The notes below the pieces were generated by a model that saw only the letters and a list, made by a program, of their open reading frames with translations, ran no database searches and was not told the DNA's origin. A program made the translations under genes and the position numbers. This document shows, one piece after another, positions 1-8,973 of a stretch of 8,973 nt of DNA (position 1 is its first letter; each line of letters opens with the position of its first letter). Source of the stretch: Candidatus Schekmanbacteria bacterium (GTDB lineage: Bacteria > CSSED10-310 > JACPHN01); the NCBI GenBank assembly GCA_016188575.1, contig JACPHN010000202.1:1-8973 (forward strand). Reading direction: 5' to 3'.

Positions 1-210
1 CACCGCGGCGCCACCGTCTCCGAGCGGCGCGCTGCGGGCCGCGTAGACGCCATCGGCCGCGTCACCCGCGACCACCTGCCACGCCTCCGCGGGGCTCATT
101 TCCCACGGCAGCGCGGCGAAGGTGCCGGATTCGAAGGAGTCGCCCGCGGCGCGCACCGGGCTCGGGACGGCGATCAGCACGAACAGGCAGGTGGTCGCCG
201 CCAGATTCAC
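1..210 (-). CDS. Exported protein, N-terminal part only, candidate phase-variable gene
   Basis: A minus-strand frame is open from 210 to the left edge (70 codons, no stop), so the gene is truncated by the window. From the GTG at 208-210 it reads VNLAATTCLFVLIAVPSPVRA, then AGDSFESGTFAALPWEMSPA and on. This is a hydrophobic core followed by a likely signal peptidase I site (VRA, residues 19-21). The mature start, with DSFESG and a Trp-rich stretch near residues 36-45, resembles the beginning of secreted beta-sandwich or lectin-like surface proteins; that family reading is inference. The frame continues upstream through the CT tract only to a TAG at 256-258, and GTG 210 has no Shine-Dalgarno and no positive residue in its n-region. 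A far better start, ATG 251-253 with GGAGG at 259-263, lies one base out of frame across the (CT)11 tract. The gene may therefore be in an OFF state or translated poorly from GTG. The function is unknown. Confidence 0.65.
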   Translation of the reverse strand, partial: MNLAATTCLFVLIAVPSPVRAAGDSFESGTFAALPWEMSPAEAWQVVAGDAADGVYAARSAPLGDGGAAV

Positions 211-212
211 GC

Positions 213-234
213 AGAGAGAGAGAGAGAGAGAGAG
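213..234 (-). repeat. (CT)11 dinucleotide microsatellite at the 5' end of the exported-protein gene
   Basis: The plus strand carries eleven perfect AG units (CT on the coding strand). They are continued by AAGGGA, giving an uninterrupted 28-base purine run at 213-240. The tract lies between a strong ribosome site with ATG (251-263) and the signal-peptide frame beginning at 210. From the A of the ATG to the G of the GTG codon is 43 bases; 12 or 9 units would make this 45 or 39 and join the two frames. At 10 units the ATG frame meets a TGA directly after the tract. At 11, the present number, the ATG frame gives a 63-residue product ending at 62. Dinucleotide tracts of this length are prone to slipped-strand mispairing. 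Confidence 0.95.
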
Positions 235-250
235 AAGGGACGCGCCACGA

Positions 251-263
251 CATGCCTACCTCC
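251..263 (-). promoter_or_regulatory. Ribosome binding site and ATG ahead of the CT repeat
   Basis: On the minus strand GGAGG (259-263) lies 5 bases before an ATG (251-253). The ATG opens MSWRVPSLSLSLSL, where the Ser-Leu run is coded by the CT tract. With one extra CT unit this start would give a signal peptide with Arg at residue 4 and a long hydrophobic stretch, which is more typical than the uncharged n-region obtained from the GTG at 210. The site is the best initiation signal between the end of the upstream gene and the exported-protein frame. Confidence 0.6.
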
Positions 264-360
264 GGCGAGATCGAGGGCCACACTACCCCGAACGCTAGGC
301 CCAATCGATGGTGCGACGCAAGGGGAGCGGGCGGCCTGAATCCACCGGCTCGCGGCAGAT

Positions 361-2432: not shown

Positions 2433-5400
2433 CAGGTATCGTCCTCTCGGCAGAGGCGGCGGTTTGCACCGACTGAGCGCGATGATAGGAGAAGAGGTCA
2501 TCCGCCCCCATCTGCTCAAAGGCGCCAAGCACTCGCAGCCCCGTCAGGTCGATGCGGTCGGCATCGCCCACAACCGCTACGGTCAGGGGCTTTTCCGCAA
2601 AACGGGCAGCAAAGCCCGCGACCTCCTGAAGCGATAGTACTTCCGTCTTCGCCATGATTTCCGGACGCGGATCGTCACGGTAGCCCCTGCGCACCCAACC
2701 GTCCACCACTGTCGGCACGGCGCGAAAACCAATGCGATTGCTGAGCATGGCCTGCAGAGATGCTTCCTTCGCCTCCGTGAATCTCTGCGGGAGCACCGGA
2801 AGGTGCCGAATCAGATCCAGCAGGAGCCGCGTGGACTCGACGGTCTTGTCCGCCTGGGTGCCGAGATAACCGTGCAACCCGTTCTGATCATCAGCTTCAC
2901 TTCCCGCACTGTACCTGCAGGAGGCGGCATAAGCCAGCGCCCGCGCCTCTCGGATCTCCTGGAAAATTATGCCACCCATGCTGCCGTCCACATACTCGTT
3001 GTACATGCCATAGATCGGCACGTTTTCGAGATCGAGGATTTCATCTCCCGCGGTAACGGCAACCAGCGACTGAACGCTTTCGTGGTCGACGAACAATACC
3101 GTGTCGGCTCCTCGGTCCACGTAGCGCTCGGGCGGTAGCTTCGGCGGTGGCGTCAGGGTTTCGCGCTGCGCCGCCACGAGCGCGCTGATGTCGCCGGCCG
3201 ATCCGCTACCGACGTAGTACGTCGTTCGCGCGTACTGCCGCAGGTTGCCGAGAGCACGGGAGACGTCCGCGAGCGACAGCGCGGTCACTTCGACATTCGT
3301 GGGCGCGCGGAGAAACGGGCTCTCTTTGCCCAGCATCGCAAAGAGACCGAGGCCGTTTGCGAGCACCTTGGGATTGTCGAGATCTCGCTCGCGTCGCGCG
3401 ATGGTGTTCTCGGCCCACTTCCGGAGATCGTCCGGAGCGAGCTCCGGCGTGTACAGGCGTGCCACGAAGAGCTCCCAGGCCGCGCTGAGATGGCGTTCAG
3501 GACCGTCGAGGCCGGCCACAAGACTGCGCGGTGTGCACGAGTAGCGCAGCGACACGCCCATGGCGTACAGGCTGCGTTTGAGTGCGCCAGCGTCCATTCC
3601 CGCAGCGCCGGCCTTATCCAGGAGGTCGACCGCAAGGCACAGCTTCCCGTCGTGATCGCTGCCGACATCGAACCGCAGCGCCAGATCGAAAATGTCGTTG
3701 TACGGGTTGGCGGCCACGTACAGTGGGCCGGCCAAAGTCTGCTGCACCTGGTAGTCTGCGCCAGCCGAAAGGAACTTCGGAGCGATGGCGGTGGTCTTCA
3801 TTGCCGCGATCTCGTTGAACAGCACCGAGCGCTTCGCGGCGTCGAGATCCAGGTGCGTAAAGGCCGGGGCCGTTACCTTCGGGATTTCGGGCGTGCCGTT
3901 GCGGCGATAGCCGGCGGCGAAGCTCGGCCCGAAGTAGCGATTCGCCACGCGCACAATGTCGTCGCGCCTGAGTCGGCGCATGCGCTCCAGCCTGCCTCGG
4001 TGGTCATCCCAGCTCACGCCGCGGACGAACGCCGTGAACATTTCTTGAACGCGACTGCTGCTTGACTCGGCCGTGCGCTTTTGGCTCACCTCGAAATTGG
4101 TGACGATGGCGTCGATGTCCTCCTGGGAAAACTCGCCGCCCCGAAGTTTCGCGACTTCCGCGAGCAACAGGCTCTCCACGTCCTCGAGAGCCTGGTCGGC
4201 GCGCGGAATCGCCTGCAGAATCTCGGCGCCCGTCTCGACACCCGTGAAGGCATACGACCCTGCGTGGCGCACCTTCTGTGTCTGCGTCAGGTCGAGGTTG
4301 AGCAGCCCCGTCGTGGAGTTGTCGAGGATCATGTCCAACAGTGTCAAGGCGTCAGCGTCCGGATGGTTGTCGCCGACAGTCTGCCAGGCGAGCATGACCT
4401 GCTCCTCACCCGAGTGAGCAAGTTCGACCCGGTGCACGCCGGTCAGGGCAGTCGGCTGCCGAGACTCCCGTTTTGGCGCCACCTTGGGCAGCCAGCGGCC
4501 GAGCTGAGCGTTGAGGACGGTCAGGGCTGTGGCCGGCTGAAAGTCGCCAGCGAGGATGACGGCCATGTTCTCGGGGACGTACCACCTGGAGTAGAACTCC
4601 ATCATCTTGCTGAGTGAGGGATTCTTGAGGTGCTCGACAGTGCCGATCGTGGGAACGGCGTAGGGGTGGCCGCGGAAAAGTGGTTCGAAGACGGCGGCGC
4701 GGAGTGCTCGGCCAGGATTGTCGAGCGCCCGGTTCTTCTCCTCGTAGACGGTTTCGATTTCGGTCTGGAAGAGACGAAACACGGGGTTTTCAAAGCGGTC
4801 GCGCTCGGTAATGGCCCAGCGTTGGAGCTGATTGGACGGGATGTCAGCCATGTAGACTGTATAGTCCACGGACGTCGCAGCGTTGACCGCTTGAGCGCCG
4901 ATAATATCGTACACCTTCTGCAGGTCGTTGGGGATGGCATAGCGACTGGCCGCGACGTTTTCCCGATCGATTTCCGCGTAGATTTGCTGGCGGCGCTGCT
5001 GATCCTGCGTTGCGAAGAGATCGTCGTAGAGCTTCTGAATGCGGTCGAGGTGGGTGACCTCGGTCGCGAAATCCGTGGTGCCCAGACGCCTGGATCCCTT
5101 GAACAGCATGTGCTCCAGGTAGTGGGCCATGCCGGTAGCTTCAGGCGGGTCCTCGGCGCTGCCAGCCTTGACCGCGATGTAGGCGACGATTCGCGGTTCC
5201 TCGTGGTGCTCGCTGAGGTATACCGCCAGGCCGTTATCCAACCTGTGCACCTCGACGCCCAGGGGATCGGCCGGAAGGGCGGGAGTCGCCGCGGCCACGA
5301 CTTGGGTGTCCGGCACTGCGGGCTGCGGGGATCGGCGGGGCGGCGCGCATGACGGCAACGCGATCAGAAGAATCAGGATGGCGAGAGACGCAGCGAAGAG

Positions 5401-5556
5401 GCGTGGCGCGAAGGCGGCGTGAATCCACCATCTGCTTGACGTCGACGCGACAGCGCCCCCCTCCGTTCCTCCCCCCGTGGGCGTGGGGAAGTGACGTGGG
5501 GGGTCTTCGCCATGCGCTTTCCGCCCGGCTTGCCCGCTCAAGCAAGCGGAGCTCAC
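2410..5556 (-). CDS. M16 (pitrilysin/insulinase) zinc metallopeptidase, predicted lipoprotein
   Basis: A 1048-residue double-length M16 protease. A hydrophobic segment at 53-69 ends in LPSC (Cys70), a lipobox, so the enzyme is probably lipid-anchored in the periplasm or outer membrane. The inverted zinc motif HYLEH lies at 145-149, and the third ligand is probably Glu273 in TEIETVYEEKN (E266-x6-E273, as in pitrilysin). The gap between them is enlarged by an insert near 165-235, which I recall from a known bacterial subgroup. The second half (about 605-1020) lacks HxxEH and is the usual inactive lobe, with IREARALAY (868-876) carrying the Arg/Tyr pair typical of M16 C-terminal domains. It likely degrades peptides in the envelope. 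The GTG at 5554-5556 overlaps the rsfS stop (GTGA) and has GGAGG at 5564-5568, 7 bases upstream. The 45 residues before the hydrophobic segment are unusual (Gly/Pro/Thr-rich), and the only other in-frame start is a TTG at codon 6. Confidence 0.92.
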   Translation of the reverse strand: MSSACLSGQAGRKAHGEDPPRHFPTPTGGGTEGGAVASTSSRWWIHAAFAPRLFAASLAILILLIALPSCAPPRRSPQPAVPDTQVVAAATPALPADPLGVEVHRLDNGLAVYLSEHHEEPRIVAYIAVKAGSAEDPPEATGMAHYLEHMLFKGSRRLGTTDFATEVTHLDRIQKLYDDLFATQDQQRRQQIYAEIDRENVAASRYAIPNDLQKVYDIIGAQAVNAATSVDYTVYMADIPSNQLQRWAITERDRFENPVFRLFQTEIETVYEEKNRALDNPGRALRAAVFEPLFRGHPYAVPTIGTVEHLKNPSLSKMMEFYSRWYVPENMAVILAGDFQPATALTVLNAQLGRWLPKVAPKRESRQPTALTGVHRVELAHSGEEQVMLAWQTVGDNHPDADALTLLDMILDNSTTGLLNLDLTQTQKVRHAGSYAFTGVETGAEILQAIPRADQALEDVESLLLAEVAKLRGGEFSQEDIDAIVTNFEVSQKRTAESSSSRVQEMFTAFVRGVSWDDHRGRLERMRRLRRDDIVRVANRYFGPSFAAGYRRNGTPEIPKVTAPAFTHLDLDAAKRSVLFNEIAAMKTTAIAPKFLSAGADYQVQQTLAGPLYVAANPYNDIFDLALRFDVGSDHDGKLCLAVDLLDKAGAAGMDAGALKRSLYAMGVSLRYSCTPRSLVAGLDGPERHLSAAWELFVARLYTPELAPDDLRKWAENTIARRERDLDNPKVLANGLGLFAMLGKESPFLRAPTNVEVTALSLADVSRALGNLRQYARTTYYVGSGSAGDISALVAAQRETLTPPPKLPPERYVDRGADTVLFVDHESVQSLVAVTAGDEILDLENVPIYGMYNEYVDGSMGGIIFQEIREARALAYAASCRYSAGSEADDQNGLHGYLGTQADKTVESTRLLLDLIRHLPVLPQRFTEAKEASLQAMLSNRIGFRAVPTVVDGWVRRGYRDDPRPEIMAKTEVLSLQEVAGFAARFAEKPLTVAVVGDADRIDLTGLRVLGAFEQMGADDLFSYHRAQSVQTAASAERTIPGESVDHR
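5471..5503 (-). other. C6/G6 inverted repeat inside the N-terminal extension of the M16 gene
   Basis: CCCCCC (5471-5476) and GGGGGG (5498-5503) could pair around a 21-base loop. The purine-rich GGGGGGAGGAACGGAGG follows on the coding strand. The segment codes for Pro/Thr/Gly-rich residues (about 18-34) ahead of the lipoprotein signal. Its composition looks more like intergenic sequence than like the rest of the gene. The functional meaning is uncertain. Confidence 0.3.
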
Positions 5557-6086
5557 TCCTCCTCCTCCTCGTACTCGTACTCGACAGGGGGAAAGTCACC
5601 CTGGCCCATTCCTTCGGGTTCGTCATAACCATCGGCCATGGCGTCATCGCCGGCGGGCTCCGCGGGAGGCAAGGCGACCGGCACCTCCGGGCACTTTGAC
5701 CAAAGGCGCTCGAGGCGGTAGTGCTCGCGCGCTTCCCGGGAAAAGACGTGGAAAACGACGTCGTAGCAGTCGAGAACGATCCACTGTCCGGCATCGTACC
5801 CGTGGACGAACGCCGGGCGGTGCTCGGTGGGCTTCAGCTCGTCGCGCACTGCGTCGCCGATCGCTCGGATGTGGCGGTCCGACCGCCCGGAAACGATGAC
5901 GAAATAGTCGGCGATCGTGGACTCGGCGCCGATGTACAGGACGACGAGGTCTGAGCCTTTCTTGCTCAAGATGGCCGCAATGACTTCCTCAAGCCATTCC
6001 GGAGTGGGTGGGGCGACGACGGCAGGCTGCGGGTGCTCCTGCTGTAGGGCATCGCCAGGTGTTTCGACAGTGGCGGGAACGCTCAT
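5553..6086 (-). CDS. rsfS: Ribosomal silencing factor RsfS
   Basis: RsfS (YbeB/Iojap family) binds ribosomal protein L14 on the 50S subunit and blocks joining with 30S, lowering translation under starvation. The core spans about 30-135 of 177 residues and shows the family landmarks TIADYFVIVSGRSDRHIRAI (57-76), WIVLDCYDVVFHVF (102-115) and YRLERLW (123-129). It is clearly longer than the roughly 105-residue E. coli protein. The extra length is a Pro/Gln-rich N-terminus of about 30 residues and an acidic C-terminus ending in EYEYEEEEE. ATG 6084-6086 overlaps the nadD stop as ATGA, and AAGGAG lies at 6098-6103 inside nadD. The stop overlaps the GTG of the M16 gene. Tight coupling to nadD is common in bacteria; the M16 gene as the next partner is not. 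Confidence 0.95.
   Translation of the reverse strand: MSVPATVETPGDALQQEHPQPAVVAPPTPEWLEEVIAAILSKKGSDLVVLYIGAESTIADYFVIVSGRSDRHIRAIGDAVRDELKPTEHRPAFVHGYDAGQWIVLDCYDVVFHVFSREAREHYRLERLWSKCPEVPVALPPAEPAGDDAMADGYDEPEGMGQGDFPPVEYEYEEEEE
5556..5570 (-). promoter_or_regulatory. (GAG)5 tract: acidic tail of RsfS and ribosome site for the M16 gene
   Basis: Five consecutive GAG codons end rsfS and run straight into TGA. In the overlapping frame they supply several phased GGAGG Shine-Dalgarno cores before the GTG start of the M16 gene; the one at 5564-5568 is 7 bases away. A single short repeat thus codes for protein and sets initiation of the next gene. Confidence 0.6.
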
Positions 6087-8871: not shown

Positions 8872-8925
8872 CGAGGATGCCGGCTCGTCACGACTGCTGG
8901 TCACAGCCAGAAGGAGGTTCTCGGG

Positions 8926-8973
8926 ATGCGAAAGGTGGGGGGGGTACGGCCGGATCGTCGCCGTAGCCGTGGC
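8926..8973 (+). CDS. Unidentified protein, first 16 codons only
   Basis: The ATG at 8926-8928 is preceded by a full AAGGAGG (8911-8917) at 8 bases of spacing, one of the best ribosome sites in the window. The frame stays open to the right edge and reads MRKVGGVRPDRRRSRG. This strongly basic N-terminus could be the n-region of a signal peptide or the tip of a nucleic-acid-binding protein. Too little is present to name a family. The gene is transcribed away from rplU. Confidence 0.6.
   Translation, partial: MRKVGGVRPDRRRSRG

Follow-up and report, generated by a model that had tools for sequence, protein, structure and literature searches.

Simple repeats at the starts of a family of putative exported proteins suggest slipped-strand phase variation in an uncharacterised bacterium

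RESULTS

A CT tract separates the start codon from the signal-peptide frame

The window, by which we mean the whole stretch of DNA analysed, is the entire contig C44 (8973 bp) of a 9.2-Mb genome that has been assembled in 275 contigs. At each of its ends lies the beginning of a gene that runs off the contig (Table 1). Between them we found genes for an M16 peptidase, RsfS, a NadD-like cytidylyltransferase and Obg, together with those for ribosomal proteins L27 and L21, which were assigned by sequence. The RsfS-like protein has an acidic tail, EYEYEEEEE, that is encoded by short CTC and CTCGTA repeats (positions 5553-5583, minus strand).

The original prediction described, at the left end, GGAGG and an ATG followed by eleven CT units and a signal-peptide frame shifted by one base relative to the ATG, and it read this arrangement as a phase-variable exported protein in its OFF state. 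All of the elements were confirmed in the sequence, and the reading frames bore out the one-base offset. Tandem Repeats Finder reported the tract at 213-235 as 11.5 units with a 100% match, and 11 CT units occupy positions 213-234. The tract is not a product of chance: (CT)11 had a mean of 0.00 and appeared in 0 of 200 dinucleotide-preserving shuffles. The frame that extends from 210 to 1 on the minus strand is open and signal-peptide-like; it leaves the contig at residue 70 of the domain frame, short of the stalk that is found in longer members of the family. The frame of the ATG itself terminates at codon 64. The calculation that nine or twelve repeats would join the two frames was correct, and the product foreseen for the ON state was matched by a paralogue with an in-frame tract on contig C77, which reads MSWRIPSLSLSLCVNLAATTCLFVPIAVPSPARA. 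This C77 copy has a further frameshift downstream. The gene at the right end of the window is a second member of the same family, and it is out of frame by alignment with the related copy on C260.

Table 1. Coordinates of the repeat-associated features at the two ends of the window
Feature	Position	Strand	Remarks
Shine-Dalgarno GGAGG	259..263	(-)	From sequence; conserved across all MSWR-type paralogues
ATG start codon, frame MSWRVP(SL)n	251..253	(-)	Start region conserved among paralogues
T(CT)11 tract, read as Ser-Leu whatever the frame; putative ON/OFF switch	213..235	(-)	
Remainder of signal peptide and first 46 residues of MAM-like domain (SFESGTFAALPW...)	1..210	(-)	
Alternative start GTG	210-208	(-)	
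Conserved upstream block of MSWR-type copies	264..325	(-)	Homology at background past about 120 bp
Shine-Dalgarno GGAGG of second family member	8913..8917	(+)	
Start (MRKV...) of poly-G-type family member, runs off contig	8926..8973	(+)	Family domain present in the related C260 copy
G8 tract at the equivalent position, directly after MRKV	8937..8944	(+)	G7 or G10 in four other copies

The window copy belongs to a family of separately located genes

When the 70-residue sequence encoded by positions 210-1 was used as a query, about 30 good relatives were detected in the source genome, mostly at contig ends, and a profile of the domain gave about 37 matches. We mapped and tabulated 35 start sites of one exported-protein family. 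Most copies have a common layout, in which the Shine-Dalgarno sequence and the start are followed by a small number of charged codons and a simple repeat; next come a hydrophobic stretch and a MAM-like domain that opens with SFE[ST]G..LPW. According to their first residues the copies can be divided into the types MSWR, to which the window copy belongs, MPRRVM, MTQR, MSRR and MRKV, with some single variants. Identity between the upstream flanks of different copies is kept for ~60-120 bp and then drops to background. Since the flanks are unrelated past about 120 bp, the copies represent separate loci, and contig C44 breaks at a family gene because assemblies break in repeated genes. The position of nearly all copies at contig ends of a fragmented draft could raise the suspicion that the repeats are an artefact of assembly, but this is extremely unlikely: the tracts lie inside contigs, the upstream flanks are unique, and the tracts recur at many loci with differing lengths, framed by conserved codons. 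Neither the family nor long CT tracts were found in the relatives that we searched, which share only the phylum with the source genome, and a viral collection contained no relatives. Distant homologues of the domain occur across many phyla.

Repeat tracts are concentrated at family starts and vary in length

Genome-wide tract counts were obtained by pattern searches. Family starts accounted for 14 of the 16 (CT)7+ sites in the genome; one of the other two lies within a type III mod gene and one at the beginning of another reading frame. Searches of seven other genomes of the same phylum gave no (CT)7+ site. The tracts consist of CT, GT or G depending on the subfamily; some copies mix CT with GT, and the MRKV type has G7, G8 or G10. 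Repeat number varied among paralogues whose flanks are conserved, a comparison that is restricted to paralogues in the absence of a second strain. In MSWR copies with downstream flanks that are 93.5-97% identical, the distances from ATG to GTG were 35, 39, 43 and 49 nt, and the tracts of C118 and C189 differed by 6 nt. Since a CT repeat encodes Ser-Leu in every frame, it may build the core of the signal peptide at any length, so that only the later frame changes.

Two further tracts were observed outside this family. The Deltaproteobacteria MAG Zod_Metabat.1445 (G104; L106) contains (CT)20 between a start codon (MIGRWAA), which it directly follows, and a stretch resembling a signal peptide; that genome has several long CT tracts and is possibly a parallel case. 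On C86 of the source genome, near position 9974 (L010 2957-3661), a frame MSIM(RE)n of unknown family contains an AG tract of ~13 units, which is in frame as assembled.

In the MSWR copies and in many of the MPRR type, a GTG follows the tract in the domain frame (at 210 in the window) and could serve as the start of translation, in which case the tract would be untranslated or would tune expression. Rheostats that depend on repeat length are known, for example in H. pylori sabA (PMC4081817). A start at this site is very unlikely. The tract is all pyrimidine and therefore no purine-rich ribosome site is possible before the GTG, the resulting peptide would be without the positively charged beginning of a signal peptide, and GGAGG, the ATG and the codons as far as the tract are conserved.

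Out-of-frame copies are under the same purifying selection as in-frame copies

In nine copies the frame of the ATG continues through the signal peptide (C153, C162a, C162b, C211, C258, C4, C67, C77b and C77a, the last of which is in frame through the signal peptide but frameshifted later). Most of the other copies are out of frame. Several clearly in-frame copies have tracts that are short or interrupted, and on these grounds some ON copies may be locked. We considered whether the family is decaying, with dead out-of-frame copies in which microsatellites have merely expanded. Copies with long tracts are nearly all out of frame, and further frameshifts or stops interrupt a few copies (C67, C4, C162b, C77 and C102), as would be expected from decay. 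However, the pooled pN/pS in the domain was 0.32 for OFF/OFF pairs, 0.30 for ON/ON pairs and 0.30 for mixed pairs. The equal purifying selection in OFF and ON copies indicates that the former have been selected as proteins and are not simply dead, which is as expected for reversible switching and not for old pseudogenes. Decay is also opposed by the conservation of starts, Shine-Dalgarno sequences and flanks, by long frames that stay open behind the switch, such as the 930 codons that persist behind the out-of-frame start of C195, and by the near absence of (CT)7+ tracts elsewhere in the genome. We therefore regard it as unlikely.

The distribution of frames is skewed. Among CT tracts of at least 13 nt for which the frame is known (n = 16), one is in frame, 13 are at +1 and two are at +2; every poly-G copy whose frame is known is likewise offset by +1. 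Free slippage predicts about a third of copies per frame, and the observed skew is greater than this, with the reservation that common descent lowers the effective number of copies. Selection for few ON copies would shrink the in-frame class and would leave the preference of +1 over +2 unexplained. Deletion-biased slippage from copies that were recently ON is one possible source of the preference, and recoding at the repeat is another. In the case of recoding, copies would be held at +1 on purpose and expressed when RNA polymerase or the ribosome slips on the repeat. The common offset favors this idea, as do the length differences among MPRR copies, which are net multiples of three, and the reasoning from sequence that (CU)n and G runs permit realignment without mispairing. 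We nevertheless hold it to be highly improbable, considering that in-frame copies (C211 and C258) and +2 copies occur and that relatedness by descent inflates the count. It is also very doubtful that selection keeps most long-tract copies one dinucleotide off so that slippage on CU or G runs gives low, noisy expression. If slippage during expression were the true explanation, the repeat would be a family-wide recoding device instead of, or beside, a switch at the DNA level.

Longer members combine a MAM-like domain with zinc-metallopeptidase motifs

In the proteins of the in-frame copies C211 (1129 residues) and C162a (1164 residues), the signal peptide and MAM-like domain are followed by a Thr/Pro-rich stalk and then a hydrophobic segment, with a zinc motif in the C-terminal part. 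For the window copy, a stalk, a hydrophobic segment and a protease motif can only be inferred from these longer members. A C-terminal HExxH motif was present in four of them, namely HEVGHAIGAAH in C211, HEGGHSIHIIHY in C162a, HEMLH in C195 and HEVAH in C143, and C211 has the metzincin zinc motif HExxHxxGxxH. The motif of C143 sits behind a further frameshift. No obvious repeat was seen at that frameshift (L026, about 3890-3990). A Pfam search with C211 gave Reprolysin_5 with an E-value of 1.7e-4, under the curated cut-off, and comparison of the C-terminal region with PDB sequences resulted in weak matches to metzincins, by sequence only. Searches of full-length members against Pfam and NCBIfam detected no confident domain; the MAM-like domain had no Pfam family match at cut-off, and a profile search of PDB sequences with this domain gave no match.

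The structure models that we used were of homologous domains from other genomes and not of members from the source genome. The homologue model (pLDDT 89) matched the MAM-like domain of VesC (Z 15.3), the MAM domain of meprin (about 14) and the gingipain K1 adhesin (12.7), and it also resembled carbohydrate-binding modules. Judged through its homologues, the mature domain may adopt a MAM/cleaved-adhesin-like jelly-roll fold, a beta-sandwich. The proposal of a surface antigen or adhesin needs correction in one respect: the zinc-metallopeptidase motifs in four longer members indicate that the protein is probably no plain adhesin.

A type III restriction-modification locus is also interrupted by a repeat

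On C194 (L112 1253-3170; L124) an (AG)9 tract splits the gene for a type III mod methyltransferase. RhuM and Res genes come after it, and the Res gene also appears frameshifted. This restriction-modification system is probably phase-variable, and the source genome appears to use simple repeats as switches beyond the exported family.

DISCUSSION

The neisserial opa genes form a multi-copy family in which the hydrophobic section of the signal peptide is encoded by a CTCTT repeat, and the majority of copies are OFF at once; Opa is a small beta-barrel adhesin. The family described here is likewise multi-copy, has its repeat in the same section of the signal peptide and has most copies OFF, but in the window copy the repeat is a dinucleotide and not a pentanucleotide. 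The opa precedent invoked in the original prediction therefore holds for the structure of the family, and the closer precedent for the repeat is the (CT)n of Helicobacter pylori oipA and sabA. The number of CT repeats in the signal-peptide region of H. pylori oipA sets the gene ON or OFF (PMC10564699). As in our family, the CT repeat of oipA, sabA and babB is located just past the start, in the signal-peptide region, and the paralogues switch separately, which for our family is an inference. The Helicobacter Hop proteins are porin-like, unlike the MAM-like exported proteins found here, and no Pfam or NCBIfam match to a Hop outer-membrane protein domain was obtained with full-length members. 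Compared with Hop, this family also has far more copies, includes GT and poly-G versions, and resides in a high-GC genome of 9.2 Mb. The proposed switch would work like the (CT)n repeat of H. pylori oipA, in a family structured like opa, but the protein family is unrelated.

Gingipain cleaved-adhesin domains, Vibrio VesC and meprin MAM show similarity to the N-terminal jelly-roll fold as modelled from homologues, and also pair such a domain with a protease; they differ in the type of protease and in domain order, and the family here is without a Pfam match. For the type III system the nearest counterpart is the mod gene of Mycoplasma mycoides, which contains AG repeats (PMC3498834). In both cases an AG dinucleotide repeat splits the mod gene, located in its 3' part at C194 and at about nucleotide 320 in Mycoplasma mycoides. 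We found no direct precedent in the literature for gene families switched by repeats among uncultured environmental bacteria, although such cases may exist.

We consider it probable that the truncated gene at the left of the window, of which the 5' end is present, is a slipped-strand phase-variable contingency gene, with variation within a population as yet undemonstrated. The interpretation as an exported protein in the OFF state is supported by ~35 loci of the same layout, by varying tracts and mixed states, by selection on OFF copies and by the MAM-like fold of a homologue. The anatomy, the family size, the differences in tract length, the frames and the purifying selection were observed directly. 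Switching itself is inferred. Replication slippage on (CT)n would gain or lose dinucleotides and, because two is not a multiple of three, each step would shift the frame between the ATG and the signal peptide with the mature domain. One frame class is predicted to give a continuous Sec-type signal peptide with (Ser-Leu)n in its hydrophobic stretch, and hence an exported protein; in the other two classes translation would stop after a short aberrant peptide. The ~35 separately located paralogues, with CT, mixed CT/GT or poly-G at the equivalent position in different subfamilies, may switch independently, in which case the assortment of exported binding and proteolytic proteins in a cell would change at random, with most members OFF at once. 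Export, like switching, is an inference, and so is function, which is probably the binding and processing of surface or polymer substrates. That phage, predators, a host or changing substrates drive the variation is similarly inferred.

Switching of surface proteins by simple repeats has been documented mainly in small-genome, host-adapted pathogens. Here, the 9.2-Mb genome of an uncharacterised bacterium encodes about 35 apparently switchable exported proteins, along with a type III restriction-modification system that can probably switch as well. In such genomes, assemblies break exactly at the genes that vary. Should sequencing reads confirm the variation, the family would rank with the larger repeat-switched ones known, and one would have to ask which pressure sustains it, whether from phage, predators, a host or changing substrates.
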